DNA of 64,000 bases, taken from Dokdonia pacifica (GTDB lineage: Bacteria > Bacteroidota > Bacteroidia > Flavobacteriales > Flavobacteriaceae). Numbering within the stretch: position 1 is the first letter of the stretch; every line of letters starts with the position of its first letter. The position numbers and the translations under genes were made by a program. Below the pieces are notes generated by a model, which had not been told where the DNA came from, searched no databases, and saw only the letters and a list, made by a program, of their open reading frames with translations. The stretch lies in the NCBI RefSeq assembly GCF_900188275.1, contig NZ_FZNY01000001.1, forward strand, positions 744,001-808,000, read 5' to 3'. Below are positions 4,870-63,202 of this stretch, piece by piece.

Positions 4870-4881
4870 TTTCGCGAAAGC
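4870..4881. repeat. TTTCGCGAAAGC palindrome, half-decayed copy (intergenic)
   Basis: The core TTTCGCGAAA is intact and only the right arm keeps GC. It lies 23 bases beyond the ahcY stop. Weaker symmetry continues outward (CGTATTCG left, CGAACACG right). Confidence 0.8.
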
Positions 4882-4903
4882 GAACACGTATTTATTTTTC
4901 AGA

Positions 4904-6220
4904 TTAATACCTGTAGTACTCAGGCTTAAAAGGACCTTCTACAGTCACTCCAATATACTCTGCTTGATCTGGACGAAGAGTTTCTAATTCTACTCCAAGA
5001 CGTGCAAGGTGTAATGCAGCTACTTTTTCATCAAGGTGCTTAGGAAGCATGTATACTTCATTTTTGTATCTATCACTATGATTCCAAAGCTCGATTTGCG
5101 CTAGCGTTTGGTTTGTAAATGAATTACTCATCACAAAACTAGGGTGTCCTGTAGCACAACCTAAATTTACTAAACGACCTTCTGCAAGAACGATAATATC
5201 TTTTCCGTTGATGGTATATTTATCAACCTGTGGTTTGATCTCATCTTTTGTTGCACCGTGTGTATCGTTTAACCAAGCCATATCGATCTCATTATCAAAG
5301 TGACCTATATTACAAACGATTACTTTATCACGCATCGCTTCAAAATGACGTGCCTGAATGATATCTTTATTTCCTGTAGTTGTAATCACAACATCTGCAT
5401 TTCCTACAACCGTCTCAAGTCTCTTCACTTCAAAACCATCCATAGCTGCTTGTAAAGCACAGATAGGATCAATTTCAGTAACCGTTACAATAGAACCTGC
5501 ACCTTTAAAAGAAGCGGCTGTTCCTTTTCCTACATCACCATATCCACATACTACAACGCGTTTTCCTGCTAACATAGTATCTGTAGCACGACGTATAGCA
5601 TCTACGGCACTCTCACGACATCCATATTTGTTATCAAACTTCGATTTTGTAACAGAATCATTTACATTAATCGCAGGCATAGGAAGTGTTCCGTTTTTCA
5701 TACGCTCGTATAAACGGTGTACTCCTGTCGTAGTTTCTTCAGAAAGACCTTTGATATCACCTACTAATTCTGGGTAGCGATCTAAAACCATATTGGTAAG
5801 GTCACCTCCATCATCAAGAATCATATTTAATGGCTTACGATCTTCTCCAAAGAAAAGTGTTTGCTCAATACACCAATCAAACTCTTCTTCATTCATTCCT
5901 TTCCAAGCATATACTGGAATTCCAGCATCTGCAATAGCTGCTGCTGCTTGATCTTGTGTAGAAAATATATTACACGAGCTCCAAGTAACCTCAGCACCAA
6001 GTGCTTGTAATGTCTCAATTAATACGGCTGTCTGAATGGTCATGTGAAGACATCCAGCAATACGAGCTCCTTTAAGAGGTTGCTCATTTTTATATTCTTC
6101 ACGAAGAGACATCAATCCTGGCATCTCTGCTTCTGCAAGCTCGATCTCTTTACGACCCCAAGCCGCCAATGAAATATCTTTTACTTTGTACGGTACGTAC
6201 GGTGCTGTTTTTGTACTCAT
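4904..6220 (-). CDS. ahcY: Adenosylhomocysteinase
   Basis: 438 residues from the ATG at 6220 (MSTKTAPYV). An upstream in-frame ATG at 6283 would add 21 hydrophobic residues unlike the family, so it is rejected. The enzyme hydrolyses S-adenosylhomocysteine to adenosine and homocysteine in the methyl cycle and needs NAD. Visible marks are the [13 protein letters not shown] substrate region, the NAD-binding [11 protein letters not shown] loop, and the C-terminal FKPEYYRY signature. It is divergent from the phosphopantetheinyl transferase gene. Confidence 0.97.
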
Positions 6221-6281
6221 TATTAGTATCTTTGAATTATAGCAAATTGCGTGCAAAATTACATAATATCTTACAGTTCTC

Positions 6282-6905
6282 ATGCCTCTTTACAAAACAA
6301 TAACAATTAACCCGCAAACAACGGCCTATATTTGGAAGATTGAAGAGGATATTGATACGCTTTCGCGAAACATAAAACTCACCGATCACTGCCAGCAACG
6401 TGTAGATGGAATGAAGTCCGAATTACACCAACGAGGCTTTATGAGTGTACGTCATTTACTTGCTGAAGCTGGATATACCGATTTTGATTTGTATTACGAC
6501 ACCCAAGGAAAACCACATCTTAAAGATGGAAAACATATTTCCATCACCCACTCTTTTATCTTTTCTGGAATTATTGTGAGTGATCAAGAAGTTGGGATTG
6601 ATATTGAAATGCAACGCGATAAAATAATGCGTATTGCCCATAAATTTACACCTCTTGAAGAGTATAGAACGCTAGCAAACACAGAAGCTATTGTTAGAAA
6701 ACTCACCATCGTATGGGGTGCTAAAGAGTCATTATACAAACTATATGCTCAAGAAGGATTGAGTTTTTTAAAGCATATAGATGTACAAGATTTTTACTTT
6801 GATGATGCGCAAACTACCGCTAGTGTTACCTATAATGCAGAAAAAAGTAGCTATCATATTTTCTTCCTAGAGTTTGAAGGATTCACCTGTGTATATGCGT
6901 TTTGA
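6282..6905 (+). CDS. 4'-phosphopantetheinyl transferase (Sfp type)
   Basis: 207 residues. It moves phosphopantetheine from CoA to a serine of acyl or peptidyl carrier proteins. Family motifs are in order: GKPHL, then ISITHS (near residue 87), then GIDIE (near 106), then the [10 protein letters not shown] helix near 147. The Mg-binding acidic residues in GIDIE and WGAKE are present. The LSRN stretch at residues 27-30 is encoded by a TTTCGCGAAA palindrome. GGGP synthase follows after 68 bases on the same strand. Confidence 0.92.
6359..6370. repeat. GCTTTCGCGAAA palindrome inside the PPTase gene
   Basis: The left arm is complete and the right arm ends AAAC instead of AAAGC. It is read in the LSR(K/N) frame as TLSRN at residues 26-30. 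Confidence 0.85.
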
Positions 6906-6973
6906 TTCGAGATTAATAATTGTTGATTTAGAACTTAAATCTGTATGAAGCTTATTCCGTATTTTCGCCATAG

Positions 6974-7684
6974 ATGAACCTCTATCAAGATATACACACT
7001 GCCCAAGTACAGGGAAAATCATTACTAGCTATTCTAATTGATCCAGATAAGTTTGTAGCTGAGTACGCTTTCGCGAAAGCGTACCTAGAAAAAACCCCAT
7101 CTCAAACCACTCATTTTTTAGTAGGAGGAAGTTCTGACGCCTCGCAACATATAGAAGCGGTGGTTCGTATATTAAAAGAACTTTCTGCATTACCTGTGAT
7201 TCTATTTCCTGGTGATTATACTCAAATTACACCTGAAGCAGATGGCATTTTATTCTTATCATTACTCTCTGGCCGTAATCCAGAATACCTAATTGGACAA
7301 CAAGTAAAAGGAGCTTCTCACATTCAGAAAAGTAATCTAGAAGTCATCCCTACAGGATATATTCTGATAGATGGAGACAAAGAAACAGCCGTACAACGTG
7401 TAAGCAATACGTTACCCATACCTCAAAATGATATCACTTCTATTGTACATACTGCACTTGCTGGACAATATTTAGGAAAGAAATGTATCTATCTAGAGGC
7501 AGGAAGTGGCGCAAAAACCCCTGTCTCTTTACCCATTATAAAAGCCGTTCGAGAAGCTATAGATCTTCCATTGATTGTAGGTGGTGGTATTCGTTCTCAA
7601 AAAACCATGCAACATGCATATGAAGCAGGAGCCACCATGGTCGTTATTGGCACTGCTTTTGAAGAGGATCGTTGGGATACCTAA
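6974..7684 (+). CDS. Geranylgeranylglyceryl phosphate synthase family protein
   Basis: 236-residue TIM-barrel protein of the GGGPS/PcrB family. It is expected to join sn-glycerol-1-phosphate with a prenyl diphosphate, making an archaeal-type ether precursor. Motifs seen are ILIDPDK near the N-terminus, YLEAGSGAK for product binding, and the phosphate-binding LIVGGGIRS with GATMVVIGTAFE near the end. Bacteroidota enzymes of this family are known to be GGGP synthases. The YAFAKAY stretch at residues 31-37 is encoded by a 22-bp perfect palindrome. Confidence 0.92.
   Translation: MNLYQDIHTAQVQGKSLLAILIDPDKFVAEYAFAKAYLEKTPSQTTHFLVGGSSDASQHIEAVVRILKELSALPVILFPGDYTQITPEADGILFLSLLSGRNPEYLIGQQVKGASHIQKSNLEVIPTGYILIDGDKETAVQRVSNTLPIPQNDITSIVHTALAGQYLGKKCIYLEAGSGAKTPVSLPIIKAVREAIDLPLIVGGGIRSQKTMQHAYEAGATMVVIGTAFEEDRWDT
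7067..7080. repeat. GCTTTCGCGAAAGC palindrome inside the GGGPS gene
   Basis: The symmetry extends to a 22-bp perfect palindrome (7063-7084), the longest in the window. It is read in the AFAKA frame. Confidence 0.95.
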
Positions 7685-7714
7685 TAATCACATAGAAAGT
7701 CCTATTTTTATAGT

Positions 7715-8674: not shown

Positions 8675-8687
8675 GAAAGTATTAAAA

Positions 8688-8948
8688 ATGAATATATCTG
8701 TAGAACTTACCTTTACACCTTTACAAGACAATTACGAACCTCCTATTACTGCCTTTATTAAAAAACTAAGAGCTTCAGGGCTAACCGTATTAGAAAACCC
8801 ATTATCCACACAAGTTTATGGGGAATATGATGCTGTTATGAATATGCTTACTAAAGAGATAAAAGAAAGTTTTTCGGGTATAGATATTGGCCTATTTCAA
8901 ATGAAAATTGTTAAAACAGATCGTAGTGATTATGTCCCAGATTTTTGA
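8688..8948 (+). CDS. Thiamine-binding (MTH1187/YkoF-like) protein
   Basis: 86 residues from the ATG at 8688; an earlier ATG at 8637 lies inside the previous gene and is rejected. The sequence reads as a ferredoxin-like small domain (ISVELTFTPLQ, then VLENPLSTQVYGEYDAVM, then IVKTDRSDY) of the MTH1187/DUF77 family. Pfam names that family Thiamine_BP because its relatives bind thiamine. It overlaps the following PnuC-type gene by 17 bases. This, with the downstream TPP-riboswitch receptor, supports a vitamin B1 role. Confidence 0.75.
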   Translation: MNISVELTFTPLQDNYEPPITAFIKKLRASGLTVLENPLSTQVYGEYDAVMNMLTKEIKESFSGIDIGLFQMKIVKTDRSDYVPDF

Positions 8949-9564: not shown

Positions 9565-10085
9565 GAATCTGTCTTTTTGGTCCAGAGAGTAGTGGGAAGA
9601 GTACGCTTTCGCGAAAGCTATCCCAGCATTATAACGCCCCGTTAGTACCTGAATTTGCTAGAGAATACCTTCAAAAACTCTGGGATGAAGAACAAAAAAT
9701 ATGCAGACCTAAAGATTTACTACCTATTGCTGCAGGGCAAATGCAACTTGAAAATAAGGCAGTCCTAACCAACCCGCCTCTTATTATCTGTGATACCGAT
9801 TTATTAACCACAAAAGTGTATAGCGAAGCCTATTATGAAGGTTGGTGTCCAAATTTACTTGCGAAATATGCCCTAAAAAACACCTATGATTTGTATCTTT
9901 TAACCTACATTGATACACCTTGGCAAGCAGATGATTTAAGAGATCGCCCTGAAAGAAGACAAGAAATGTTTGATCATTTTAAAAATGCATTAGAACACAA
10001 TAACAGACCTTATATGCTGTTAAAAGGTTCGGTAGAAGAGCGCATGCAGCTAGCTACAAAAACTATAAACCTACTATTACATTGA
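9525..10085 (+). CDS. NadR-like nucleoside/vitamin kinase (P-loop ATPase)
   Basis: 186 residues. The Walker A motif GPESSGKSTL lies at residues 19-28, followed by PEFAREYL and CDTDLLTTKVY, as in the ribosylnicotinamide kinase domain of NadR. There is no N-terminal adenylyltransferase domain. The role is probably to phosphorylate and trap the vitamin carried by the PnuC-type transporter whose gene it overlaps. TLSRKLSQ in the P-loop helix is encoded by the GCTTTCGCGAAAGC palindrome, so a repeat lies at a catalytic element. Confidence 0.85.
   Translation: MEEALRQQPSNSIRICLFGPESSGKSTLSRKLSQHYNAPLVPEFAREYLQKLWDEEQKICRPKDLLPIAAGQMQLENKAVLTNPPLIICDTDLLTTKVYSEAYYEGWCPNLLAKYALKNTYDLYLLTYIDTPWQADDLRDRPERRQEMFDHFKNALEHNNRPYMLLKGSVEERMQLATKTINLLLH
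9605..9618. repeat. GCTTTCGCGAAAGC palindrome inside the NadR-like gene
   Basis: It is read in the LSRK frame, directly after the Walker A lysine codon, so the repeat forms the helix that follows the P-loop. Confidence 0.95.
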
Positions 10086-12506: not shown

Positions 12507-14879
12507 ATGAAAAAAATCCTATTTATTGTTTTTGTACTATGTACAGTTATTAGTTTTGGTCAAACCTACACGGTTTCTGGAACAGTAAGTGATTTAAATG
12601 GCCCTATTTCAGGAGCAATTGTAACCAAAAAAGGAGGAACAAATGAAGTAATTACAGATGTGAACGGGAAGTATCTTATTGAATTAACAAGAGGTTCTCA
12701 CACACTTATCTTTAAGGCTTTAGATCAAGAAATTGAGCATATTATTAGAGTTACGAAAGATGCTATATTAGATATTAATTTTGGACTTGATGGTAAACTA
12801 GATGAAGTACTTGTGCGTGCTGTACGTGTAAATGCAGACTCTCCAATTACCCACTCCAACTTGAGTAAAGAGCAACTGGCAGAGCGTAACTTAGGGCAAG
12901 ATATTGCTACACAAATCAAATTCCTTCCTAATGTGGTAACCACCTCAGATGCAGGAGCTGGTATTGGATATACTGGTTTTAGAGTACGTGGAACAGGAAA
13001 TCAAGGAATTAACGTAACCATTAATGGAATTCCATATAATGATGCAGAGAGTGCTACTAGCTTTTTTGTAAACCTACAAGACTTTACCTCATCTGTAGAA
13101 AACCTACAATTACAACGTGGTGTAGGAACTTCTACCAACGGACCAGGAGCTTTTGGAGCAAGTTTAAATATCCTAACAGATGCAGTATCTGACGAAGCTT
13201 ATGGAAGCACATCACACTCATTTGGATCGTTTGGCACTAGACGTCATAATGTAAAGTTCAGTACAGGACTTTTAAATGATCACATAGAAATTTCAGGTCG
13301 TTTATCACAAATAAAATCTGATGGATATATAGATCGTGCATCGTCAGATCTAAAATCATACTTCCTTCAAGCAGCATATAAAGATGATAATACGCTAATC
13401 AAAGTGATCAACTTTGCAGGATCTGAGGTAACCTACCAATCTTGGTTTGGAGTAGATGCAGAAACAGCAGCAAACAACCCAACGTTTAATCCTGCAGGTC
13501 AGTTTACAGATGAAAATGGAAATATCAGATTTCATGAAAACCAAGTAGATGATTATAAACAAGATCATTATCAAGTACACTGGAATCAACGATATAATAA
13601 CAATTGGAGCACTAACCTTAGTTTTAACTACACCTATGGACGTGGTTTCTTTGAAGAATATGAAGAAGATGACGATCTTGACTTTTATGGCATCTCTCCT
13701 GTTACTATTGGTGGTGAGACTATTGAAACTTCAGATCTTATTCGCCGTCGTTGGTTAGACAATGATTTTTATGTGGTAAATGCCAATGTGAATTATAAAG
13801 ACACGCAATGGGATTTTACGTCAGGATTATACTGGAGTCAGTATAATGGAGATCATTTTGGTGAAGTTATTTGGGCACGTTTTGCAAGTGATTCTGAAAT
13901 AGGTGACAACTATTATTTTGGAACGGGAGAAAAGGGAGAATTTTCTGCTTTCGCGAAAGCTACCTATAGAGTAAACAATCAGTGGAGCGTATATGGAGAT
14001 CTTCAAGGAAGGTTTATCAATTATGAAACAGATGGTATTAATTCTGATGTACAAGAATTTATTGTAGATGAATCATATAGTTTTTTCAACCCTAAAGCAG
14101 GTGTTACGTATAAACTTGATGAAAAAAATCAATTTTATGGAAGTTATGCAAGAGCAAATCGTGAGCCTAACCGTACTGATTTTGAAAATGGCGCACCAAG
14201 ACCAGAACGTCTTAATGATTTTGAATTAGGATGGAGATATAATTCATCAAAAGTAAAGCTAAATATAAACGGATATTATCTGGACTTCCGCGATCAACTA
14301 GTTGTCTCTGGCATTGATGATGTAGGAGCACCTATACGTACTAATAGTGGACAGAGTTATAGAGCTGGTGTCGAAATAGAGGCTGCGGTACAACTAACTT
14401 CAAAATTAAGTGTGTATCCAAATCTTGCGGTAAGTACCAACAAGAATAAAGATTTCTTATTTCAAAGAGATGGTGTATTACAAAATCTTGGAGATACAAA
14501 CATCTCATTCTCTCCTGATGTTGTAGCTGGAAACACTATTCAATATGTTCCTGTAAAAGGACTTACGTTACAATTCTTATCAAAATTTGTAGGAGAGCAA
14601 TACTTAGGAAATATAGACAGCCCTACTTCACTTTTAGATAGTTATTTTGTAAATGATTTTAATGTAACCTACGAATTGGGTGAAATTGCATTTTTTAAAG
14701 GAGTTACATTAAACCTATTGGTTAATAATGTATTTGATGAGCGATTTATCTCTAATGGATACTTCTTTACGTTTGATGATGACTTTAGTGTTCCTGGAGA
14801 AATCACTACTGTTGAAGGTGCAGGATTTTATCCGCAAGCAGGTACTAACTTCTTAGTGGGAACTACCTTGAGATTTTAA
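12507..14879 (+). CDS. TPP-riboswitch-controlled TonB-dependent receptor, probably for thiamine
   Basis: 790 residues from the ATG at 12507 (signal peptide MKKILFIVFVLCTVISFGQ); an upstream ATG at 12399 would put 36 odd residues before the signal peptide and is rejected. An N-terminal carboxypeptidase-like domain (about 20-95), a plug domain (GFRVRGTGNQGINVTINGIPY) and a 22-strand-type barrel ending GTTLRF are seen. Control by a TPP riboswitch strongly suggests import of thiamine or a thiamine precursor across the outer membrane. SAFAKATY in the barrel comes from the palindrome. A terminator follows. Confidence 0.9.
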   Translation: MKKILFIVFVLCTVISFGQTYTVSGTVSDLNGPISGAIVTKKGGTNEVITDVNGKYLIELTRGSHTLIFKALDQEIEHIIRVTKDAILDINFGLDGKLDEVLVRAVRVNADSPITHSNLSKEQLAERNLGQDIATQIKFLPNVVTTSDAGAGIGYTGFRVRGTGNQGINVTINGIPYNDAESATSFFVNLQDFTSSVENLQLQRGVGTSTNGPGAFGASLNILTDAVSDEAYGSTSHSFGSFGTRRHNVKFSTGLLNDHIEISGRLSQIKSDGYIDRASSDLKSYFLQAAYKDDNTLIKVINFAGSEVTYQSWFGVDAETAANNPTFNPAGQFTDENGNIRFHENQVDDYKQDHYQVHWNQRYNNNWSTNLSFNYTYGRGFFEEYEEDDDLDFYGISPVTIGGETIETSDLIRRRWLDNDFYVVNANVNYKDTQWDFTSGLYWSQYNGDHFGEVIWARFASDSEIGDNYYFGTGEKGEFSAFAKATYRVNNQWSVYGDLQGRFINYETDGINSDVQEFIVDESYSFFNPKAGVTYKLDEKNQFYGSYARANREPNRTDFENGAPRPERLNDFELGWRYNSSKVKLNINGYYLDFRDQLVVSGIDDVGAPIRTNSGQSYRAGVEIEAAVQLTSKLSVYPNLAVSTNKNKDFLFQRDGVLQNLGDTNISFSPDVVAGNTIQYVPVKGLTLQFLSKFVGEQYLGNIDSPTSLLDSYFVNDFNVTYELGEIAFFKGVTLNLLVNNVFDERFISNGYFFTFDDDFSVPGEITTVEGAGFYPQAGTNFLVGTTLRF
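13947..13960. repeat. GCTTTCGCGAAAGC palindrome inside the thiamine receptor gene
   Basis: It is read in the AFAKA frame within a barrel strand (EFSAFAKATYR). Confidence 0.95.
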
Positions 14880-15411: not shown

Positions 15412-15425
15412 GCTTTCGCGAAAGC
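15412..15425. repeat. GCTTTCGCGAAAGC palindrome (intergenic)
   Basis: It lies between the divergent lipoprotein and greA genes. The outer arms are TAC / ATA, so symmetry ends just outside the 14-mer apart from a central TA pair. Confidence 0.93.
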
Positions 15426-16466: not shown

Positions 16467-17039
16467 GATCCCTTGTAATTTTAGATACTGCAATAATATC
16501 ACTGTTTTTGCATCCTTAATTTCTCCTGTTTTGATCATGTTATACGCTTTCGCGAAAGCGTACTCATGTACCAAAATATCTTCATGCTCTTCTATAACAC
16601 CGCCTCCTTCACTTACCTTATCTTTTTCGGAATAAGCAGCTATAAAGAGATGAACAGTTTCGGTTACAGAACCCGGAGACATATATAAATCCATGACACT
16701 TTCTACCTTAGAAAGATGATAGCCAGTTTCTTCTTCTATCTCTTTTTTTATGGCAGTTTCTGGATCATGATGATCTAACAACCCTGCACATACTTCAATA
16801 AGCATTCCACTTGGGTTTCCATTATAATACGTAGGCATTCGGAACTGCTCTGTTAAAATAACAGTATTCTTTTCTTTATTGTATAAAATAACGGCTGCAC
16901 CATTCCCTCGGTCGTATACTTCGCGTACTTGGGGCTCCCAATTTCCTTTAGAGTCACGATAATCAAACGTAACTTTATGTAAGATTGCCCAGTTATCTGA
17001 TAATAAGGTTTTTTTAATATTCTTTATATACTCAGGCAT
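16458..17039 (-). CDS. NUDIX hydrolase, NudK (GDP-mannose pyrophosphatase) type
   Basis: 193 residues from the ATG at 17039; a GTG three bases upstream is possible. The Nudix box reads GLLDHHDPETAIKKEIEEETGY with the metal-binding E-E in IEEETG. It fits the NudK/ADP-sugar pyrophosphatase branch (EQFRMPTY, then YMSPGSVTETVHLF). The substrate cannot be fixed by sequence. EYAFAKAYN near residue 160 is palindrome-encoded. It starts 8 bases inside the end of the histidine kinase gene, so the two are translationally coupled. Confidence 0.85.
   Translation of the reverse strand: MPEYIKNIKKTLLSDNWAILHKVTFDYRDSKGNWEPQVREVYDRGNGAAVILYNKEKNTVILTEQFRMPTYYNGNPSGMLIEVCAGLLDHHDPETAIKKEIEEETGYHLSKVESVMDLYMSPGSVTETVHLFIAAYSEKDKVSEGGGVIEEHEDILVHEYAFAKAYNMIKTGEIKDAKTVILLQYLKLQGILR
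16546..16559. repeat. GCTTTCGCGAAAGC palindrome inside the NUDIX gene
   Basis: The symmetry extends to the 20-mer TACGCTTTCGCGAAAGCGTA (16543-16562). It is read in the AFAKA frame on the minus strand. Confidence 0.95.
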
Positions 17040-19867: not shown

Positions 19868-21226
19868 ATGTCTATCACAAAAACTATAGAAACGCTTTTT
19901 CAAAAGTATATTCCATCTCCTTTCGTAATAGCCATTATATTAACACTACTCACTATGGTGTTAGCATTATTATTTACAGAAAACCCTTCTGAAACAGCAC
20001 ATCCTATTACGATTCTAACATTTTGGGAAGAAGGCATCTGGAATAACAATTTATTGGTCTTTGCTTATCAAATGATGCTCATCCTCGTTTTAGGCCACGT
20101 ATTGGTATTAAGCAAACCCATGAACTGGTTAATCTCTCAAATAACCGTATATGCAAAAGATACTTCAAGTGCTGTAATTCTTGTAAGCATCACAACCATG
20201 CTTGTCGCATTTTTTAATTGGGGATTAGGACTCATTTTTGGCGCTATTATAGCACGCAAAATTGGAGAAGCCGCCGTAGAGAAAGGTTTTAAAATCAATT
20301 ATCCTCTTGTAGGAGCTGCAGGATATATTGGACTTATGGTTTGGCATGGAGGTATGAGCGGGTCTGCTCCACTAAAAGTAGCCGAAGAAGGGCATCTTGC
20401 CTCATTAATGAATGGCATTGCATCACCAGAAGTTATTGCACAACTTCCTAGTAAAATAACAGATGGACAAACCATTTTTAGCTGGTGGAATCTTCTCATT
20501 TTTGGAATCCTTCTGATCGTAATTCCTTTTACGTTTTATTTGCTTTCGCGAAATGGAAAAACAACCGCACTCCCTGATTTTAGTACTTCTAAAAAGTTTT
20601 CTGAACACCCTCAAAAACAAGACAAACTCGACAACTCTAAATTACTAGCTATAGGGTTTGGTTTCATACTTCTTATTGCCTTTTTTGCTAGATATTATGG
20701 AAAGTCATTATCTCCTAATATGCTTAATTTCCTAATGCTTGGGTTAGGTATTATCCTACACGGAAATTTCAAAAACTTCCTTAAAGCTGTAGAAGAAGCC
20801 ATTGGGGGAGCCAGTGGAATTTTAATTCAATTCCCATTGTATTTTGGAATCATGGGAATCATGAAAAGCACAGGAATGGTGACGATGATCAGTGATGGAT
20901 TTATTGCAATTGCTACAGAAACAACACTCCCTATATTTACATTTTTTAGCGCAGGACTCGTCAATATTTTTGTGCCAAGCGGTGGCGGGCAATGGGCCAT
21001 TCAAGGTCCTATTGTTATAGAAAGCGCCCTTTCACTAGGCGTTCCTTTACCCAAAGCAATCATGGCATTGGCCTATGGAGATCAAGTCACCAATATGTTA
21101 CAACCCTTTTGGGCATTACCATTATTAGGCATTACAAAACTAAAAGCCAAAGAAATACTTCCTTACACTCTTATTCTTATGGTAGTAGGAAGCGCTATTT
21201 ATATCTTAGGGTTACTGTTATTATGA
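19868..21226 (+). CDS. Short-chain fatty acid transporter, AtoE family
   Basis: 452 residues, about 10-12 hydrophobic helices. The family marks include the glycine-rich VPSGGGQWAIQGPI and the AYGDQVTNMLQPFWALPLLG segment near the C-terminus. It likely imports short-chain fatty acids; the exact substrate is unknown. LLSRNGK near residue 227 is encoded by a decayed palindrome. The aat gene follows after 12 bases on the same strand. Confidence 0.88.
   Translation: MSITKTIETLFQKYIPSPFVIAIILTLLTMVLALLFTENPSETAHPITILTFWEEGIWNNNLLVFAYQMMLILVLGHVLVLSKPMNWLISQITVYAKDTSSAVILVSITTMLVAFFNWGLGLIFGAIIARKIGEAAVEKGFKINYPLVGAAGYIGLMVWHGGMSGSAPLKVAEEGHLASLMNGIASPEVIAQLPSKITDGQTIFSWWNLLIFGILLIVIPFTFYLLSRNGKTTALPDFSTSKKFSEHPQKQDKLDNSKLLAIGFGFILLIAFFARYYGKSLSPNMLNFLMLGLGIILHGNFKNFLKAVEEAIGGASGILIQFPLYFGIMGIMKSTGMVTMISDGFIAIATETTLPIFTFFSAGLVNIFVPSGGGQWAIQGPIVIESALSLGVPLPKAIMALAYGDQVTNMLQPFWALPLLGITKLKAKEILPYTLILMVVGSAIYILGLLLL
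20542..20553. repeat. GCTTTCGCGAAA palindrome inside the AtoE-family gene
   Basis: The right arm is lost (AAATGG). It is read in the LSR frame in a loop between two helices. Confidence 0.85.
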
Positions 21227-21238: not shown

Positions 21239-21877
21239 ATGCATATTCTCACAGATCATATCGCTTTTCCTCATCCTTCTCATGCCGAAGAAGACGGGTT
21301 ACTTGCCGTAGGTGGAGATTTACAGCCAGATAGGTTGATGTTAGCCTATTATTCTGGAATATTCCCTTGGTTTAATGAAGGGCAAATGGCATTATGGTGG
21401 AGTCCTGATCCGCGTATGGTAGTCAAGCCTCAAGAAGTATATGTCTCAAAATCTATGCGTAAAGTGTTACGTGACAACTCCTTTAAAGTGACATATAATC
21501 AATGTTTTCTTGAAGTTATTCTAGCCTGTAAACGCATCAAAAGAGAAGGGCAACACGACACTTGGATCACTAATGCTATGGTGGAAGCTTATCTAAAACT
21601 ATACGAAATGGGGCACTGTATTTCTGTAGAGGTTTGGCAAGAAGATCAATTGGTAGGAGGGCTCTATGGCATCGATTTAAAAGACAAAGGTATTTTCTGT
21701 GGAGAAAGTATGTTTGCCAAAGTGAGCAACGCCAGTAAAGTAGGATTTATTACGCTTTCGCGAAAGCTAACCCAGCAAAACTACCGTCTTATTGATTGTC
21801 AAACATACACAAATCACCTTGCTAGTTTGGGAGCCAAAGAAATTCCTAGAGAAGATTTTTTAAAGTATCTATCTTAA
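21239..21877 (+). CDS. aat: Leucyl/phenylalanyl-tRNA-protein transferase
   Basis: 212 residues, usual length. Motifs are GLLAVGGDLQPDRLMLAYYSGIFPW (near residue 19), WWSPDPRMV and GGLYGI. It adds Leu or Phe to proteins with N-terminal Arg or Lys, marking them for ClpS/ClpAP in the N-degron pathway. TLSRKLTQQNY near the C-terminus is palindrome-encoded. Confidence 0.96.
   Translation: MHILTDHIAFPHPSHAEEDGLLAVGGDLQPDRLMLAYYSGIFPWFNEGQMALWWSPDPRMVVKPQEVYVSKSMRKVLRDNSFKVTYNQCFLEVILACKRIKREGQHDTWITNAMVEAYLKLYEMGHCISVEVWQEDQLVGGLYGIDLKDKGIFCGESMFAKVSNASKVGFITLSRKLTQQNYRLIDCQTYTNHLASLGAKEIPREDFLKYLS
21754..21767. repeat. GCTTTCGCGAAAGC palindrome inside aat
   Basis: It is read in the LSRK frame (ITLSRKLTQ), in the same protein context (TLSRKL) as the copy in the NadR-like kinase. 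Confidence 0.95.
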
Positions 21878-29252: not shown

Positions 29253-29972
29253 TTAGCTATTATCTCGAGCTGCAAAACTATTCTCAAACGTCACAATATC
29301 TTGTGCATTATCTACGCAGTAATCTCCTATTTTGGTTCTTTTAAGTGCAATAAGATGCGCTCCACTATCTAACCCTTTCCCCATATCATACGCAAGTGAT
29401 CGGATATAGGTGCCTTTACTACAACGCACTCTAAAATCTACTTCAGGCATAACAATTCGGGTGATTTCAAAATCATATATAGTGATTTCGCGAGTAGGAA
29501 CTTCGACTTCTTCGCCTGCTCTTGCAAATTCATACAGGCGTTTTCCATCTTTCTTTAAAGCTGAAAATACAGGAGGGCGTTGTTGGATGGTTCCTTGGTA
29601 CGCTTTCGCGAAAGCGTATACAGCCTCCTCCGTAATATGATCTGTAGAGAAGGTTTCATTTATTTCTGTTTCCAAGTCGTACGAAGGTGTTGTAGCACCA
29701 AGCTTTACTGTGCCGGTATACTCCTTTTCCTGTCCCATAAACTCATTAATACGCTTAGTAAACTTACCTGTACAGATAATCATTAATCCTGTTGCTAGCG
29801 GATCTAAAGTCCCTGCATGACCCACTTTAATCTTCTTTATATTCAGATTTTTTCGGATAAGCCATCGCACCTTATTGACCAACTGAAAGGAAGTCCATTC
29901 CAACGGTTTGTCAAACAGTAATACCTGCCCATCTTTATAATCTTGATCTGTGAGGTTTGAGTCTTGAGACAT
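29253..29972 (-). CDS. truB: tRNA pseudouridine(55) synthase TruB
   Basis: 239 residues from MSQDSNL at 29972; a longer ATG at 30008 lies inside uppP. The catalytic Asp is in HAGTLDPLATGLM, followed by YTGTVKLG and RPPVFSALKKDG and the final GTYIRSLAYDMG. It converts U55 of tRNA to pseudouridine. VYAFAKAYQ near residue 110 is encoded by a 20-bp palindrome in a variable linker. It lies 4 bases after uppP. Confidence 0.96.
   Translation of the reverse strand: MSQDSNLTDQDYKDGQVLLFDKPLEWTSFQLVNKVRWLIRKNLNIKKIKVGHAGTLDPLATGLMIICTGKFTKRINEFMGQEKEYTGTVKLGATTPSYDLETEINETFSTDHITEEAVYAFAKAYQGTIQQRPPVFSALKKDGKRLYEFARAGEEVEVPTREITIYDFEITRIVMPEVDFRVRCSKGTYIRSLAYDMGKGLDSGAHLIALKRTKIGDYCVDNAQDIVTFENSFAARDNS
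29602..29615. repeat. GCTTTCGCGAAAGC palindrome inside truB
   Basis: The symmetry extends to the 20-mer at 29599-29618. It is read in the AFAKA frame on the minus strand and encodes the same YAFAKAY heptapeptide as the copies in the GGGPS and NUDIX genes. Confidence 0.95.
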
Positions 29973-35696: not shown

Positions 35697-35710
35697 GCTT
35701 TCGCGAAAGC
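35697..35710. repeat. GCTTTCGCGAAAGC palindrome (intergenic)
   Basis: It lies between the ftsX and DUF302 genes (both minus strand). A CTGCCGGCA-type repeat lies 18 bases downstream. Confidence 0.93.
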
Positions 35711-37689: not shown

Positions 37690-37703
37690 GCTTTCGCGAA
37701 AGC
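37690..37703. repeat. GCTTTCGCGAAAGC palindrome (intergenic)
   Basis: It starts 9 bases after the stop codon of the UbiA-family gene. The next bases TTAAAAAATT do not continue the symmetry. Confidence 0.93.
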
Positions 37704-39154: not shown

Positions 39155-39166
39155 TTTCGCGAAAGC
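39155..39166. repeat. TTTCGCGAAAGC palindrome, half-decayed copy (intergenic)
   Basis: The left arm is TTTT instead of GCTTT. It lies 16 bases before the leuS start codon, so it is in the leuS leader. Confidence 0.85.
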
Positions 39167-39182: not shown

Positions 39183-42059
39183 ATGAAATACCATTTCAAC
39201 GAAATAGAAGCCAAATGGCAAAAATATTGGGCAGACAACGGCACATTTCACGCCAGCAACACCAGCGATAAGCCTAAATATTATGTACTCGACATGTTCC
39301 CATATCCATCGGGAGCAGGACTGCATGTGGGCCATCCATTAGGGTATATTGCCAGTGATGTCTATGCGAGATACAAGCGTTTGAAAGGGTTTAATGTATT
39401 ACATCCACAAGGCTATGATTCGTTTGGATTGCCTGCCGAGCAATATGCAATTCAGACAGGACAGCATCCTGCAACCACCACCAAAGTAAACATAGAAGGT
39501 GGTGTAGATAATCAAGGTAATGTCATTGCTGGATACCGCAATCAGTTGGATAAAATAGGATTCTCTTTTGACTGGAGTCGTGAGGTACGCACCTCAGACC
39601 CTGCTTATTACAAATGGACGCAATGGATTTTTACCGAGTTATATAACGCTTGGTACAATAATGATAGCAATAAAGCAGAAGGCATTGATACGTTGGTGTC
39701 CGCTTTCGCGAAAGCGGGTAATGAAAGCATAAATGCCGTATGCGATGATGATGTAACCATCTTTACAGCCGATGAGTGGAATGCCTATACTGACAAAGAA
39801 CAACAGACAATTCTTTTAAAATATAGATTGACCTACCTAGCCGAAACCGAAGTAAATTGGTGTCCGGCGTTAGGAACTGTACTAGCAAATGATGAAATTG
39901 TAAACGGCGTTTCAGAACGTGGTGGACATCCTGTAGTACGTAAAAAAATGACCCAATGGTCGATGCGTATTTCTGCTTATGCAGAACGTTTAATCCAAGG
40001 ACTAGACACCATTGATTGGAGTGAATCTATCAAAGAAACGCAACGCAACTGGATTGGAAAATCAGTGGGTGCGATGGTTTCTTTCCAATTAAAAGACCAC
40101 GCAGAAAAAATAGATGTGTTTACGACACGTCCTGATACCATTTTTGGAGTTTCATTTATGACATTGGCACCAGAGCATGAATTGGTGGAAAAAATCACTA
40201 CTCCTGAACAAAAAGAAGCCGTTGAAGCATACATCGAAGCGACTTCAAAACGTTCTGAACGTGAACGTATGGCCGATGTAAAAACCATTTCTGGAGTATT
40301 TACTGGAGCCTATGCCGAGCATCCATTTACCAAAGAGCCCGTTCCTGTATGGATTGGGGATTATGTATTGGCAGGTTATGGAACTGGTGCTGTGATGGCC
40401 GTTCCATGTGGAGATCAGCGTGATTATGATTTTGCAAAGAAATTTGATATTCCTATTCCAAATGTGTTTGAAGGGATTGATATTTCTGAAGAAGCATTTG
40501 CAGATAAAGCAGCAACAGTAATTGCAAATAGTGATTTCTTAAACGGATTAAAATATAAGAAAGCCGTAAAACTAGCGATTTACGAATTAGAAAAAATAGG
40601 CGCAGGAACAGGTAAAACCAATTATCGTTTACGCGATGCGGTATTTAGCCGTCAGCGTTATTGGGGAGAGCCTTTCCCAGTATATTATGTAGATGGTATG
40701 CCACAGATGATTGCCTTAGAGCATTTACCTGTTGAGCTTCCTGCGATTGAAAAATACTTACCTACCGAAGATGGGGCACCGCCATTAGGTCGCGCCGATG
40801 TTTGGTCATGGGATACTAAGACAAATACTGTTGTTTCCAATGATCTTATCTCTCCCTCTGGGGGAGATGTCCAAGGGACAGAGGGGGTTTATCCTTTAGA
40901 GTTAAATACCATGCCTGGATGGGCAGGAAGTAGTTGGTACTTCATAAAGTATATGGATAACACTACTGAGGATGGGTCTGTTCCTAAAGAAGCACTAGAC
41001 TATTGGGGTAATGTAGATTTATATATTGGAGGTTCGGAACACGGGACAGGTCACTTATTATATAGTAGATTCTGGACAAAATTCTTACACGATCGTGGAT
41101 ATCTAGGTATCGATGAGCCGTTTCAAAAAATGATCAATCAAGGAATGATTTTGGGAACAAGTGCTATTGCTTATAGAATAAGTGGCACAAATACTTATGT
41201 TTCTGCAGGATTGAAGAATCAACATGAAACAGAAGGAATTCATATCGATGTAAATATGGTAAATGCATCTGATGAGATTGATATTGAAACACTAAAAAAT
41301 TGGCAACCTCAATTTAAAAATGCAGAATTCATCTTAGAAGAAGATAAATTTGTGGTTGGGCGCGAAGTAGAAAAAATGTCTAAGCGCTGGTATAATGTTG
41401 TCAATCCAGATGACATCTGTAATCAATATGGAGCAGACACCTTACGTATGTATGAGATGTTCTTAGGGCCGTTGGAGCAAGCAAAACCTTGGAATACGGC
41501 TGGAATTACAGGGGTGCATAACTTTTTGAAGAAGCTATGGAGATTGTATCATTCGGGAGCAGAAGAAGCATTTCACGCAACCGATACAGCGCCTACAAAA
41601 GATAACCTAAAGACCCTTCATAAAACCATCAAGAAGGTAGAGGAAGATATCGAGAACTTTAGTTTTAATACTTCTGTATCTACGTTTATGATTGCAGGGA
41701 ATGAGTTGGCTACACAAAAATGTACGTCTAGAGCAATCTTAGAACCGCTTCTTATTTTAATTGCGCCATATGCACCACATATTGCTGAGGAGTTATGGAA
41801 TAAGCTTGGGCATACGGAAAGTATTTCTGAAGCCCCATTTCCAATTTTTGAAGAGAAGCATTTGGTAGAGAGTTCGAAGAACTACCCGATCTCTTTTAAT
41901 GGAAAAATGAAGTTTACATTAGAACTTCCGCTAGACTATACAAAAGATCAAATAGAGGAAGTCGTGATGGCACACGAAAAAACAAAACAGTATCTAGGAG
42001 ACCGCACCCCGAAAAAGGTGATTATCGTGCCTGGAAAGATTGTCAATATAGTGGGATAA
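39183..42059 (+). CDS. leuS: Leucyl-tRNA synthetase
   Basis: 958 residues. Class I marks are FPYPSGAGLHVGHPLGY (HIGH, near 40) and KMSKRWYN (KMSKS, near 736). The editing domain holds TFGVSFMTLAPEHE and GTGAVMAVPCGDQRD. The family shows a conserved insertion near 165-210 in Bacteroidota. The AFAKAGN part at 174-180 is encoded by a palindrome. At about 557-569, SPSGGDVQGTEGV is encoded by a TCTCCC/GGGAGATGTC hairpin repeat in frame. It charges tRNA-Leu. Confidence 0.97.
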   Translation: MKYHFNEIEAKWQKYWADNGTFHASNTSDKPKYYVLDMFPYPSGAGLHVGHPLGYIASDVYARYKRLKGFNVLHPQGYDSFGLPAEQYAIQTGQHPATTTKVNIEGGVDNQGNVIAGYRNQLDKIGFSFDWSREVRTSDPAYYKWTQWIFTELYNAWYNNDSNKAEGIDTLVSAFAKAGNESINAVCDDDVTIFTADEWNAYTDKEQQTILLKYRLTYLAETEVNWCPALGTVLANDEIVNGVSERGGHPVVRKKMTQWSMRISAYAERLIQGLDTIDWSESIKETQRNWIGKSVGAMVSFQLKDHAEKIDVFTTRPDTIFGVSFMTLAPEHELVEKITTPEQKEAVEAYIEATSKRSERERMADVKTISGVFTGAYAEHPFTKEPVPVWIGDYVLAGYGTGAVMAVPCGDQRDYDFAKKFDIPIPNVFEGIDISEEAFADKAATVIANSDFLNGLKYKKAVKLAIYELEKIGAGTGKTNYRLRDAVFSRQRYWGEPFPVYYVDGMPQMIALEHLPVELPAIEKYLPTEDGAPPLGRADVWSWDTKTNTVVSNDLISPSGGDVQGTEGVYPLELNTMPGWAGSSWYFIKYMDNTTEDGSVPKEALDYWGNVDLYIGGSEHGTGHLLYSRFWTKFLHDRGYLGIDEPFQKMINQGMILGTSAIAYRISGTNTYVSAGLKNQHETEGIHIDVNMVNASDEIDIETLKNWQPQFKNAEFILEEDKFVVGREVEKMSKRWYNVVNPDDICNQYGADTLRMYEMFLGPLEQAKPWNTAGITGVHNFLKKLWRLYHSGAEEAFHATDTAPTKDNLKTLHKTIKKVEEDIENFSFNTSVSTFMIAGNELATQKCTSRAILEPLLILIAPYAPHIAEELWNKLGHTESISEAPFPIFEEKHLVESSKNYPISFNGKMKFTLELPLDYTKDQIEEVVMAHEKTKQYLGDRTPKKVIIVPGKIVNIVG
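39702..39715. repeat. GCTTTCGCGAAAGC palindrome inside leuS
   Basis: The symmetry extends to the 18-mer CCGCTTTCGCGAAAGCGG. It is read in the AFAKA frame, replacing codons of the Bacteroidota-specific insertion rather than adding new ones (as judged from remembered relatives). Confidence 0.95.
40850..40888. repeat. TCTCCC..GGGAGATGTC..GACAGAGGG element inside leuS
   Basis: Two hairpins, CTCCCTCTGGGGGAG and TGTCCAAGGGACA, match the architecture of the intergenic copies at 43514 and 43748. It is 39 bases, so in frame, and encodes 13 residues of the synthetase between NDLI and YPLELNTMPGW. Confidence 0.85.
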
Positions 42060-45801: not shown

Positions 45802-45813
45802 GCTTTCGCGAAA
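45802..45813. repeat. GCTTTCGCGAAA palindrome, half-decayed copy (intergenic)
   Basis: The right arm reads AAAATAAA. It lies 103 bases before the ClpP start codon. Confidence 0.85.
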
Positions 45814-46594: not shown

Positions 46595-47530
46595 GTGGAC
46601 ATCAAATCCGAATTACATAAAACCGCCGGTTTTGGCAATCTAGAACTTCTTGCAAAGCAAGTGGTAGAAGGTTTTATTTCTGGAATGCATAAGAGTCCGT
46701 TTCATGGGTTTTCTGCCGAATTTGCAGAGCATAAAGTGTATAATAACGGAGAGAGCACCAAACATATTGATTGGAAATTATATGCCAAAACAGATCGTTT
46801 GTATACAAAACGATATGAAGAAGAAACGAATTTACGATGTCATCTTATTGTAGATAATAGTAGCTCTATGCACTACCCTACGGTAGCTGAGTATGGCATT
46901 GATCAATTAAATAAGATTAGTTTTTCGGCATTGGCAAGTGCTGCTATTATGAATCTTATGAAAAAACAGCGAGATGCTGTTGGGTTGAGTATTTATAGTG
47001 AGGGCTATGATTTTTATGCTTCAGAAAAAGGAAGTGATCGTCATCATCATATGTTGTTAGATCAATTAGGGGGTACGCTTGATCCCGCTTTCGCGAAAGC
47101 GGAAAAAAAGACAGCTACCTATGCACACTTACATCTTATTGCCGAGAAACTCAAGAGACGTTCTTTGGTTTTTCTATTTTCAGATATGTTTCAGAGTGAT
47201 GTAGAACAGGAGCAACTCTTTGAAGCATTACAACATTTAAAGTATAATAAACATGAGGTGGTCCTTTTTCATACCTATAGTGATGAAAAGGAATACAACT
47301 TTAAGTTTTCTAACGCTCCTAAGCGTTTTGTAGACGTTGAGACAGGAGAACATATCAATTTATATGCAGATGCGATTAGAGACACCTATAAAGCGTCTGT
47401 AGAAACGTATTTTAAGAATTTACAATTACGGTGTGCGCAATACAGGATTAAGTACATTCCTGCAGTGATTGAAAAGGGATTTAGTCCTATTTTGACTACA
47501 TTTTTAGTGGAGCGACAAAAATTTGTGTGA
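46595..47530 (+). CDS. DUF58 domain protein
   Basis: 311 residues, starting at GTG 46595 (MDIKSELHK). The DUF58 signature is FHGFSAEFAEHKVYNNGESTKHIDWKLYAKT near residue 35-65, then a von Willebrand-like site LIVDNSSSMHY with Asp-x-Ser-x-Ser. These proteins accompany MoxR ATPases and aerotolerance operons; no MoxR gene is in the window. DPAFAKAEKK near 165 is palindrome-encoded. Confidence 0.92.
   Translation: MDIKSELHKTAGFGNLELLAKQVVEGFISGMHKSPFHGFSAEFAEHKVYNNGESTKHIDWKLYAKTDRLYTKRYEEETNLRCHLIVDNSSSMHYPTVAEYGIDQLNKISFSALASAAIMNLMKKQRDAVGLSIYSEGYDFYASEKGSDRHHHMLLDQLGGTLDPAFAKAEKKTATYAHLHLIAEKLKRRSLVFLFSDMFQSDVEQEQLFEALQHLKYNKHEVVLFHTYSDEKEYNFKFSNAPKRFVDVETGEHINLYADAIRDTYKASVETYFKNLQLRCAQYRIKYIPAVIEKGFSPILTTFLVERQKFV
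47087..47100. repeat. GCTTTCGCGAAAGC palindrome inside the DUF58 gene
   Basis: The symmetry extends to CCGCTTTCGCGAAAGCGG (47085-47102). It is read in the AFAKA frame. Confidence 0.95.
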
Positions 47531-50727: not shown

Positions 50728-50741
50728 GCTTTCGCGAAAGC
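50728..50741. repeat. GCTTTCGCGAAAGC palindrome (intergenic)
   Basis: It lies between the divergent FkbM and LamG genes, within a 339-base gap. The gap also holds an ACTCATTGAG / CTCAATGAGT inverted repeat (50840-50872) and a weak hairpin AAGATG / CATCTT (50778-50815) with a TTTGAAT loop, but no gene. Confidence 0.93.
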
Positions 50742-52944: not shown

Positions 52945-53616
52945 CTATTCATTTCTTATAGATTTTACAAGATGAATAGCGTGTTTTGTTTTATCTTCTA
53001 TGTTCTTATAATTCCAGTTTCCATCAGTATCTGGGGCTATAAGTTTTGACCCTATTCCTACACAGGTAACACCAGCTTTAAACCACTCCTCTAGACTTTC
53101 TCTGGTAGGTGAAACCCCACCAGTAGGCATTATCGAGGTCCATGGGCATGGCCCTTTTATGGCTTTTACAAACTGTGCTCCATAGGTTCCTCCAGGGAAT
53201 AGTTTTACAATCTCACAACCTAATTCTTCTGCTCTTGCAATTTCGGTTAAGGAGCCGCATCCTGGCGACCATAACACTTTTCTTCTATTACAAACAACAG
53301 CAATATCTTCTCTAAGAACTGGTGTTACTATAAAGTTTGCCCCCAATTGCATATAAAGCGATGCTGCTGCTCCATCTGTAATGGAACCTACACCTAATAT
53401 AAGTTGCGGTAATTCTGCTTTCGCGAAAGCGCATAACGCATCAAATACCTTATGAGCATTATCTCCACGACTCGTAAACTCAATTACTCTTGCGCCTCCA
53501 TTATAGCAAGCTCTTAAAATTTGTTTTCCTACTTCGAAAGACTCATTATAAAACAACGGCACGATTCCCGTGTCTCTCATCATTTGTGCTACTTCTATTC
53601 TCGTAAATCTTGCCAT
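52945..53616 (-). CDS. eda: 2-dehydro-3-deoxyphosphogluconate (KDPG) aldolase
   Basis: 223 residues. The Schiff-base lysine is in EIVKLFPGG, with the second phosphate-binding site PTGGVSPTRESLEEW. It splits KDPG to pyruvate and glyceraldehyde-3-phosphate, the last step of uronate and Entner-Doudoroff catabolism. It sits 3 bases after the kdgK gene. ALCAFAKAELP near residue 65 is palindrome-encoded. Confidence 0.94.
   Translation of the reverse strand: MARFTRIEVAQMMRDTGIVPLFYNESFEVGKQILRACYNGGARVIEFTSRGDNAHKVFDALCAFAKAELPQLILGVGSITDGAAASLYMQLGANFIVTPVLREDIAVVCNRRKVLWSPGCGSLTEIARAEELGCEIVKLFPGGTYGAQFVKAIKGPCPWTSIMPTGGVSPTRESLEEWFKAGVTCVGIGSKLIAPDTDGNWNYKNIEDKTKHAIHLVKSIRNE
53417..53430. repeat. 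GCTTTCGCGAAAGC palindrome inside eda
   Basis: It is read on the minus strand in the AFAKA frame. Confidence 0.95.
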
Positions 53617-56884: not shown

Positions 56885-56898
56885 GCTTTCGCGAAAGC
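56885..56898. repeat. GCTTTCGCGAAAGC palindrome (intergenic)
   Basis: Full 20-mer TACGCTTTCGCGAAAGCGTA (56882-56901), 13 bases beyond the gntR stop codon and 98 bases before the MFS gene. On this strand it is between two minus-strand genes. Confidence 0.94.
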
Positions 56899-56913
56899 GT
56901 ACTCATCATTGTT

Positions 56914-57615: not shown

Positions 57616-57634
57616 AAACTTTTTTTTTCAATAA

Positions 57635-57646: not shown

Positions 57647-57735
57647 AATGGACACTCTAAGTTAAATAAAACTCATAGAACAGTAATATCTATCAAAAAC
57701 TTTTTTGTTCCATAAAAGCTTTTGATCTTTTAAGT

Positions 57736-57771
57736 AATTCTTACTGGCTAAAAATTAAGCCAGTAAGAATT
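57736..57771. terminator. 14-bp perfect hairpin downstream of susD
   Basis: AATTCTTACTGGCT / AGCCAGTAAGAATT with an 8-base AT loop, between susD and the gntR gene. No T run on the minus strand, so it may be an mRNA 3' stabiliser or processing site rather than an intrinsic terminator. Confidence 0.6.
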
Positions 57772-57855
57772 AAAACACTTTTTGAACAAACGGCTAATCA
57801 TATGCATTAATAATTAAGGTTTTATCTGTAAACTCAAAAAACATATCATATTCAT

Positions 57856-59193: not shown

Positions 59194-59203
59194 TTTTCTT
59201 ATT

Positions 59204-62392: not shown

Positions 62393-62537
62393 AATTAATA
62401 ATTTAAGATTGAATTAATTTGTTTTTTAAATAATTCTCAAAAAAAATTAAATGCTGTAATTTTTATAAACGATTTATTACTTTTACAACAAATAAGTTCT
62501 TTGAGCTTATTTATACTTCCTATCAGAAGTTAACTAG

Positions 62538-62568
62538 AAGGACAGTCCTCGAAGCTGTCCTTTTTTTA
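62538..62568 (+). terminator. Plus-strand terminator hairpin in the susC upstream region
   Basis: AAGGACAG / CTGTCCTT followed by T7 on the plus strand, opposite to the direction of susC. No plus-strand gene lies before it, so it could end an antisense RNA or be part of the susC leader. The 331-base gap holds this, the operators and no gene. Confidence 0.7.
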
Positions 62569-62606
62569 TTGGTTTTCCAAACTGGTAAACCAGATTGGTT
62601 TACCAA
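62569..62606. promoter_or_regulatory. Three tandem putative GntR operators
   Basis: Sites TTGGTTTTCCAA (62569), CTGGTAAACCAG (62582) and TTGGTTTACCAA (62595) lie on an exact 13-bp period. The second and third are perfect 12-bp dyads. They match the FadR/UxuR-type pattern and the site before the regulator gene. Confidence 0.65.
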
Positions 62607-62723
62607 ATATGATAATAAATATTTGTTAATGCAAATTATAATGTTAAAAATTTAAGATTTTTATAAAAAAACATCTTATGTTTTGTGTTATCCTTACAAC
62701 AAAGGGCACATATTGTATCAAGC

Positions 62724-63071
62724 TTATTCCATAAAATCTTCTCTAATTGGACTAAAAACATCAATAAGTATCCCTGCTTTAGTACAAATTGCCCCATGCA
62801 TTACGTTTGGTGGTATATAGAAAGAGTCACCGCCTCGAACTATTTTTGTCTCATTTCCAATGGTTAATTCGTATTCTCCACTTTCGACATATGTAACTTG
62901 AGAATGATAATGCTGATGCATTACTCCAACTGCTCCAACCTGGAAGTCAACTTTTACCAGCATAATCTTATCGTCATATCCCATAATTTTACGTTTGAGA
63001 CCTTCACCTACAGTTTCCCATTCGATATCATCACCGAATATGAATTCTTTACTTGCTCCAAATGATTTCAT
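62724..63071 (-). CDS. kdgF: KdgF-type cupin (unsaturated uronate ring opening)
   Basis: 115 residues, single cupin. Metal-ligand histidines are in MHQHYHSQVTYVESGEYEL (residues about 46-64) and the second motif FYIPPNVMHGA. KdgF converts the unsaturated monouronates from alginate and pectin to linear keto-acids (DEH/DKI). It has no signal peptide, so it is cytoplasmic. Together with the SDR, kdgK and eda genes it completes the pathway from monomer to pyruvate. Confidence 0.92.
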   Translation of the reverse strand: MKSFGASKEFIFGDDIEWETVGEGLKRKIMGYDDKIMLVKVDFQVGAVGVMHQHYHSQVTYVESGEYELTIGNETKIVRGGDSFYIPPNVMHGAICTKAGILIDVFSPIREDFME

Positions 63072-63188
63072 AATTTTATTTTTAATTTATCTTTCTTAGT
63101 TATGTGAGATCCTTCTAAAGAAATCTCATTATTATTAATTTTTCTGAATTACAGAAAGCACGAATCTCCTACAAATTAGACTATATAA

Positions 63189-63202
63189 GCTTTCGCGAAA
63201 GC
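63189..63202. repeat. GCTTTCGCGAAAGC palindrome (intergenic)
   Basis: The symmetry extends to AAGCTTTCGCGAAAGCTT (63187-63204). It lies between the terminal SDR and kdgF, both minus strand. Confidence 0.94.

Follow-up and report, generated by a model that had tools for sequence, protein, structure and literature searches.

A dispersed palindrome in the Dokdonia clade, a probable mark on DNA read by a protein

A 64,000-nucleotide stretch of the Dokdonia pacifica genome (contig NZ_FZNY01000001.1, forward-strand positions 744,001 to 808,000; called the window throughout, with position 1 its first letter) carries 20 exact copies of the 10-base palindrome TTTCGCGAAA, against a mean of 0.04 and a largest value of 1 in dinucleotide shuffles. 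The palindrome is abundant across this genome and in four more of the bacterial genomes counted. It is often kept at orthologous codons and probably serves as a mark by which a protein recognizes DNA. Here, we report its distribution, conservation, and spacing and its carriage by phages and islands, and we weigh what such a protein may do. About an even chance is given to a dispersed binding site for a clade-specific protein of DNA maintenance or self-recognition, behaving like the highly iterated palindromes (HIPs) of cyanobacteria.

Abundance and distribution

Perfect 14-mers (GCTTTCGCGAAAGC, exact match count) make up 15 of the copies in the window, and four copies are the full 20-mer TACGCTTTCGCGAAAGCGTA (starts 7064, 16543, 29599, and 56882). 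Eleven of the 20 cores lie inside open reading frames (ORFs) and nine between them, with spacings of 549 to 7848 bp. Codon-preserving shuffles of the window ORFs (200 runs) gave a mean of 0.07 and at most 1 core, against the 11 coding cores observed; a further 400 kb from D. pacifica held 58 coding cores against 0.65 in such shuffles (40 runs). Genome-wide (G000; 5,520,745 bases, 31 contigs), 1195 cores were counted, with 15 of the reversed control word. The initial annotation had described the same copies, and the two outcomes that could have overturned its observation both fell the other way: shuffle counts are low, and the palindrome abounds in the rest of the genome.

Core counts cover 585 bacterial genomes: 295 from the class, a further 245 from the family, and another 45 around genome G481, all of them draws and not whole groups. 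Five genomes, in three genera, were enriched: D. pacifica and D. sinensis (G497; 1107 copies), the only other Dokdonia genome in the draws; G533 (700) and G304 (595) of genus g166; and G481 (559), the single representative of genus g343. The highest count outside these five was 34, in a genome with 21 of the control word. The exact 14-mer occurs 903 times in D. pacifica and at most 6 times in every other genome of the phylum draw (395 genomes).

Among 80 named leuS loci, two were dense: Dokdonia sp. 3-709 had 11 cores over 22.9 kb, and D. sinensis had 8 over 23.0 kb. The remaining 78 held 0 or 1 core each. When these loci were examined for comparable palindromes, only three weak examples of 4 copies apiece came up beyond the two Dokdonia loci. 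One of the 78, a 9.4-kb contig filed under an uncultured Crocinitomix metagenome-assembled genome (CAKZPK010000246.1), has the leuS palindrome and a LeuRS 91% identical to that of the window; it is probably a misbinned Dokdonia-like contig. At four other Flavobacteriaceae loci (L049, L039, L095, and L025), the words TCTTCGGAA and CTTCGGAAA, read as a TTC-TTCG-GAA hairpin, are over-represented and are perhaps terminators.

Titles and opening lines of abstracts on the 10-mer, on Dokdonia or Flavobacteriaceae palindromes, and on uptake in Flavobacteria gave no report of the palindrome; the extract of PMC5217627 holds no relevant passage on palindromes or Flavobacteria. A search of the literature for HIP1 with purifying selection found no paper.

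Conservation and origin

The conservation in related Dokdonia to which the initial annotation had looked is found: 7 of 9 coding window sites are kept at orthologous codons in D. sinensis, against 5.3% of control 10-mers. At 63% nucleotide identity, G481 keeps 4 of 9 (control, 2.0%), and Dokdonia sp. 3-709 keeps 1 of 3 (control, 10.7%). A stricter comparison took codon windows with all four amino acids identical, other such windows serving as controls; the palindrome was unchanged in 6 of 7 in D. sinensis (control, 11.8%), 4 of 4 in G481 (5.9%), and 1 of 1 in G533 (13.6%). Sites kept letter for letter where the amino acids agree indicate that selection acts on the word as DNA. With observed over expected counts treated as a mutation-selection balance, ln(O/E) would be ~4.6 to 5.6, a model-based value.

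The leuS site (39702) aligns without gaps with eight palindrome-free sequences of other Flavobacteriaceae (seven from named genera) and so arose there by substitution, not insertion. It is kept in the Crocinitomix-filed contig, in Dokdonia sp. 3-709, and in D. sinensis (locus L024 and genome G497), and not in G481.

Recognition and spacing

The exact core occurs 112 times in 464 kb of D. pacifica, where 0.41 would be expected. The 30 words that differ from it by one base add up to 21 against 14.1, near background. The 15 symmetric double mutants stand at background level there, and spacers of 1, 2, 3, and 4 bases gave 3, 0, 0, and 0 copies, so the sequence is constrained, and not a hairpin alone. 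In 900 kb of G481, the exact core occurs 148 times against 1.28 expected. Across the five enriched genomes, the arms start with GC in 85 to 100% of copies; the first five arm bases are most often GCGTA in Dokdonia and most often GCGGA in g166, whereas g343 has no strong preference, a dialect-like pattern. Arm covariation is weak (positions 4 and 6, at z 3.8 and 2.7), and arm differences by replichore in G481 were −0.28 (standard error, 0.21) and −0.01 (standard error, 0.16).

Sites avoid one another below ~1 kb. Against 3000 simulations that preserved coding and intergenic classes, spacings under 500 bp numbered 3 versus 15.3 expected in D. pacifica and 1 versus 10.0 in G481; those under 1 kb numbered 11 versus 26.4 and 6 versus 19.2, respectively. 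All of forty 20-kb segments sampled from G481 (one contig) had sites (137 in total, 1 to 7 in each). Coding copies account for 231 of 324 sampled (70/116 in D. pacifica, 15/26 in D. sinensis, 10/22 in G533, 6/12 in G304, and 130/148 in G481) and use all three frames (D. pacifica and G481). One 33-kb stretch of D. pacifica (C21:57288-90252, in L003-L005; GC content, 0.329) is without any site and is possibly acquired DNA; it has a D12 methyltransferase match at 67486-68124.

Phages and mobile islands

Some temperate phages and mobile islands carry the palindrome. The 14-mer matched at least 120 stretches of IMG/VR; among the matches listed, 14 contained more than one core. Counted over their full length, 17 records (some near-identical to each other) had 1 to 8 copies. 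Seven phage records picked for many sites have 36 in a combined 221 kb, or 0.163/kb; coding DNA sampled from the five enriched genomes has 0.125 to 0.174/kb. Record G542 is Mu-like (transposase, tail sheath), with 42 genes matched by G553; G552 has an integrase and a phrog_9 terminase, and integrases are also encoded by G545 and G541. Within the genes that align, G542 and G553 (61% identity) have 2 sites in common out of 5 and 3 (control, 1.6%), and G552 and G544 (59% identity) have 1 out of 3 and 2 (control, 2.1%). No copy occurs in Cellulophaga phage phi39:1 or Winogradskyella phage Peternella_1, isolates from other hosts that come closest in their terminase or portal protein.

The few copies in several non-enriched genomes are clustered. 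Part of those in G452, G395, and G306 lie within genes of RND-efflux islands (L344-L345, L348-L349, L352, and L354-L357) homologous to stretches of D. pacifica (L019-L020) and G481 (L254); the G452 island encodes an RND pump and CusB/HlyD-type and FUR-type proteins. Clustered cores in G435 and G248 are without arms and look unrelated. At L353 (G435:C1:15001-35000), three cores within 6 kb have a common context ending TTTTTCGCGAAAGACAGAC, a different local repeat that contains the core by chance.

Candidate reader proteins

Three methyltransferase families were searched as readers. Of the five enriched genomes, PF00145 (C5) is in D. sinensis and G304 only, PF01555 (N4/N6) in G304 and G481 only, and PF02086 (D12) in D. 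pacifica and D. sinensis only; G533, with its 700 copies, has none of them. No family is thus common to the five, and these three were set aside (other methyltransferase families were not searched).

ParB is in 37 of 37 genomes and is single-copy in four of the five enriched ones. A Noc-like ParB paralogue was rejected as reader, none being peculiar to carriers and the chromosomal ParB being the same as in non-carriers; six parS- and Noc-type words are absent from the DNA scanned. D. pacifica has a second ParB-family protein (C21:474432-474719, in a 616-aa frame), also present in the non-enriched genomes G436, G452, G306, G368, and G395; in G306 and G395, this relative falls within site-carrying stretches. 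Close pairs of sites (<600 bp; four in the stretches scanned and another in G481) were tried as pointers to a reader gene. The eight proteins flanking the four pairs are all ordinary (LacI regulator, GH32, HAD, pentapeptide, M23 peptidase, ATP synthase subunits, and TPR), and the pairs were dropped as a guide.

Sites of the window

The 14-mers read in the AFAKA frame are at 7067..7080 (within a 22-mer; PcrB/GGGP synthase ORF), 13947..13960 (TonB-dependent receptor ORF), 16546..16559 (within a 20-mer; NUDIX ORF, minus strand), 29602..29615 (within a 20-mer; truB, minus strand), 39702..39715 (leuS), 47087..47100 (DUF58 ORF), and 53417..53430 (KDPG/KHG aldolase ORF, minus strand). Those read in the LSRK frame are at 9605..9618 (AAA_28 ORF) and 21754..21767 (leucyl/phenylalanyl-tRNA-protein transferase ORF). 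Cores with the left arm only lie in the 4'-phosphopantetheinyl transferase ORF (6361..6370, LSRN frame) and the short-chain fatty-acid transporter ORF (20544..20553).

The core at 7067 is kept in D. sinensis, G533, and G304, and not in G481; small alignment gaps flank it in G533 and G304. Sites 9605, 13947, and 21754 are each kept in D. sinensis and G481, and not in G533 or G304. Site 16546 is kept in G481 and gone from D. sinensis through synonymous changes; D. sinensis keeps site 29602, which G481 does not, and site 47087, which Dokdonia sp. 3-709 does not. Site 20544 is not kept in G481, and site 6361 is not kept in D. sinensis, G533, G304, G481, and Dokdonia sp. 3-709.

Between genes, 14-mers lie at 15412..15425 and 50728..50741 (each between two divergent genes), 35697..35710, 37690..37703 (stop codon 10 bp before), 56885..56898 (within a 20-mer), and 63189..63202. 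A core with the right arm at 39155..39164, with leuS starting 18 bp further on, is kept in Dokdonia sp. 3-709 and has one mismatch in D. sinensis; another, with the left arm only, is at 45804..45813. The core at 4870..4879 (right arm GCG, left arm lost) lies 24 bp 3' of the end of the S-adenosylhomocysteine hydrolase gene. Beside it, the intergenic stretch 4806-4884 has CCTGCCGGCAGGCAGG, with partial matches at several places in G481; this is a separate intergenic repeat.

Interpretation

Each copy may be a double-stranded site for a symmetric, presumably dimeric, sequence-specific protein of the Dokdonia clade, acting on DNA resident in cells: chromosome, temperate phages, and mobile islands. 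The Dokdonia reader would require a near-exact core and that of G481 would be laxer; the reader would favor GC on either side, the next three bases being genus-specific. Sites would originate by point mutation where the encoded protein permits and then be held by selection. A second site within ~1 kb would give little extra benefit, so that sites would settle at about one per 3 to 6 kb. The likeliest job would be DNA maintenance or self-recognition, with the site acting either as an architectural anchor or as a counterpart of Chi that works from both sides. A dimeric clade-specific binder whose benefit levels off over a few kilobases and reaches resident mobile DNA would account for most of the data. 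Uptake sequence, Chi-like stop signal, and architectural anchor are three jobs that such a site could have. We suggest only tentatively, as less likely than not, that the palindrome is a self-DNA address which an undescribed protein reads without orientation and from whose minimum density chromosomes, temperate phages, and islands profit. Such a code would be for self-recognition or Chi-like in both directions, would not depend on methylation, and would lie outside cyanobacteria.

Several observations weigh against the clade-specific binder. No reader protein for the palindrome was found: RecC is in 0 of 36 genomes (AddAB was not searched), which sets RecBCD aside, and no ParB residue separates 4 enriched from 16 other sequences. 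At orthologous codons, G533 and G304 each retain 1 of 5 window sites (controls, 3.4% and 3.2%). The one-mismatch words of G481 are enriched (112 against 35.5 expected in 900 kb), highest at half-site position 3, raised also at 1, 2, and 5, and not at 4 (observed/expected for positions 1 to 5, 16/5.4, 13/4.2, 53/5.5, 9/12.0, and 21/8.3), which leaves the outer C of CGCG as the sole strict base there. The overall spread of spacings in D. pacifica is no different from random (coefficient of variation, 0.94; P = 0.27), only short distances being depleted. Intergenic density is 0.80 to 1.23/kb in D. pacifica, D. sinensis, G533, and G304 (6 to 7 times coding) but 0.18 in G481. Tandem and convergent gaps of D. 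pacifica have 1.1 sites/kb versus 0.5 in divergent gaps (43 sites), and the poorer divergent gaps make a second use near 3' ends possible. Phage contigs and islands were selected for several copies, which biases their density upward and leaves shared positions unaffected. Phages G552 and G550 have 3 of 3 sites in common, but at 86% identity (control, 49%), and the aligned genes of the pairs G545-G541, G542-G545, and G542-L339 have none in common. Uptake sequences, too, show a relatively even spread and a sharp drop to one-mismatch words (PMC1939737, PMC7811141).

The initial annotation had likened the palindrome to HIP1 or a DNA-uptake or methylation-linked site and set it apart from mobile elements. 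Its likeness to HIP1 and its distance from mobile elements stand, given the substitution at leuS, the orthologous positions kept, the mix of coding and intergenic copies, and the presence of sites in 40 of 40 segments of G481. Its methylation link is not borne out for the three families searched. Under such a model (that of Elhai), an orphan methyltransferase would recognize the core, and mutation or repair bias would multiply the palindrome. Usual methyltransferase words are shorter than the 10 to 14 bases conserved here. The palindromic form with internal TCGCGA fits such an enzyme, as does the inner-C transition TTTCACGAAA of G481 (8 against 2.6 expected), but inner-C transversions are equally raised (7 against 2.9 and 6 against 2.8) and the outer-C transition is not (2 against 4.4), so the near-miss spectrum of G481 has no clear transition-specific excess. 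Cyanobacterial HIPs accompany cognate methyltransferases (PMC4390886); here, each of the three families searched is in two of the five enriched genomes and G533 is without all of them. We consider a methylation-linked origin quite improbable. A short mobile or REP-like (repetitive extragenic palindromic) self-inserting element would explain the many copies, the 20- to 22-mer extensions, the excess between genes in four of the five enriched genomes, and the small alignment gaps that G533 and G304 have next to the site of GGGP synthase. It is largely contradicted, and hardly credible, on the gapless leuS alignment with genomes that lack the palindrome (the one site closely tested), on orthologous copies retained across genera, and on copies that avoid each other. 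The same excess, the poorer divergent gaps of D. pacifica, and the weak covariation at two arm positions would speak for a terminator or an RNA hairpin that has spread between genes. This is very unlikely: most sampled copies are coding, in all three frames in D. pacifica and G481, G481 is without the intergenic excess, and symmetric double mutants are at background, for which reason a hairpin or RNA structure was rejected.

Known uptake words are directional and Chi words are read from one side, whereas the word here is a palindrome. As a DNA uptake sequence, it would be bound on incoming DNA by a competence receptor, and uptake bias with recombination would accumulate copies, as in Pasteurellaceae and Neisseriaceae. 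Lineage restriction, arm dialects, coding and intergenic copies, and short-range self-avoidance agree with this reading, and one-mismatch words are less over-represented than the exact word, by ~180-fold in D. pacifica and by 36-fold in G481. Known uptake sequences drop 92- and 82-fold under another expectation model, so that only the order of size is comparable (PMC1939737), and the scarcity of one-mismatch words is therefore no evidence against an uptake origin. Riemerella, which PMC7965970 calls a member of the Flavobacteriaceae, preferentially takes up its own DNA (PMC7965970). Carriage by some phages and islands, with sites in common between related phages, stands beside the missing direction on the other side, and we think an uptake sequence unlikely. 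A two-way Chi-like site, at which a helicase-nuclease would halt degradation and load RecA, from either side because the word is palindromic, also seems to us an improbable explanation. D. pacifica has one site per 4.6 kb, close to Chi density (1,008 sites in Escherichia coli, one per 4.5 kb; in Pseudomonas fluorescens, the Pseudomonas Chi word occurs about once per 3 kb, without strand bias [PMC5959072]); a saturating benefit is consistent with the spacing, and sites in temperate phages would fit shielding from the host nuclease. Reported Chi words have 5 to 8 bases (PMC5959072), however, against 10 to 14 here, and the RecC result counts against this reading as well.

Comparison with known systems

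Why some genomes fill with one palindrome is a question that has stood since HIP1. The Dokdonia case offers a culturable clade in which DNA-level selection is measurable per site and three main methyltransferase families can be discounted. Its spacing suggests that returns diminish, and the word is also present in some phages and islands; with these, a pull-down should be able to find the reader, and relocating a single site should allow a test of the function. Unlike REP sequences and miniature inverted-repeat transposable elements, the copies do not look like insertions relative to relatives, on the leuS alignment (the one site closely tested) and the orthologous copies. The sites to which ParB-family proteins bind, parS and Noc sites, are likewise TTTC...GAAA palindromes, but the centre has two bases here against four, and no ParB-family gene or residue is specific to carriers. 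With the uptake signal sequences (USS) and DNA uptake sequences of other bacteria, the palindrome shares lineage specificity, many copies, dialects, a relatively even spread, and a steep one-mismatch loss; it differs in being palindromic, in the sites in common between related phages, and in a spacing wider than the ~1 kb of USS. It resembles Chi in copy density, over-representation, and genome-wide spread but is longer and, being palindromic, has no orientation, and RecC is absent from the genomes examined. HIPs, which their author likens to Chi sites (PMC4390886), are a different and shorter word in another phylum and reach 1000 to 2000 per Mb (PMC4390886) versus ~216 per Mb here; the palindrome has no common methyltransferase among the three families tested and is carried by some temperate phages and islands. 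Like HIP1 and the alternate HIPs of cyanobacteria (PMC4390886), it is a short, dispersed, exact palindrome with symmetric extension, lineage-specific and far above expectation in coding and intergenic DNA alike.

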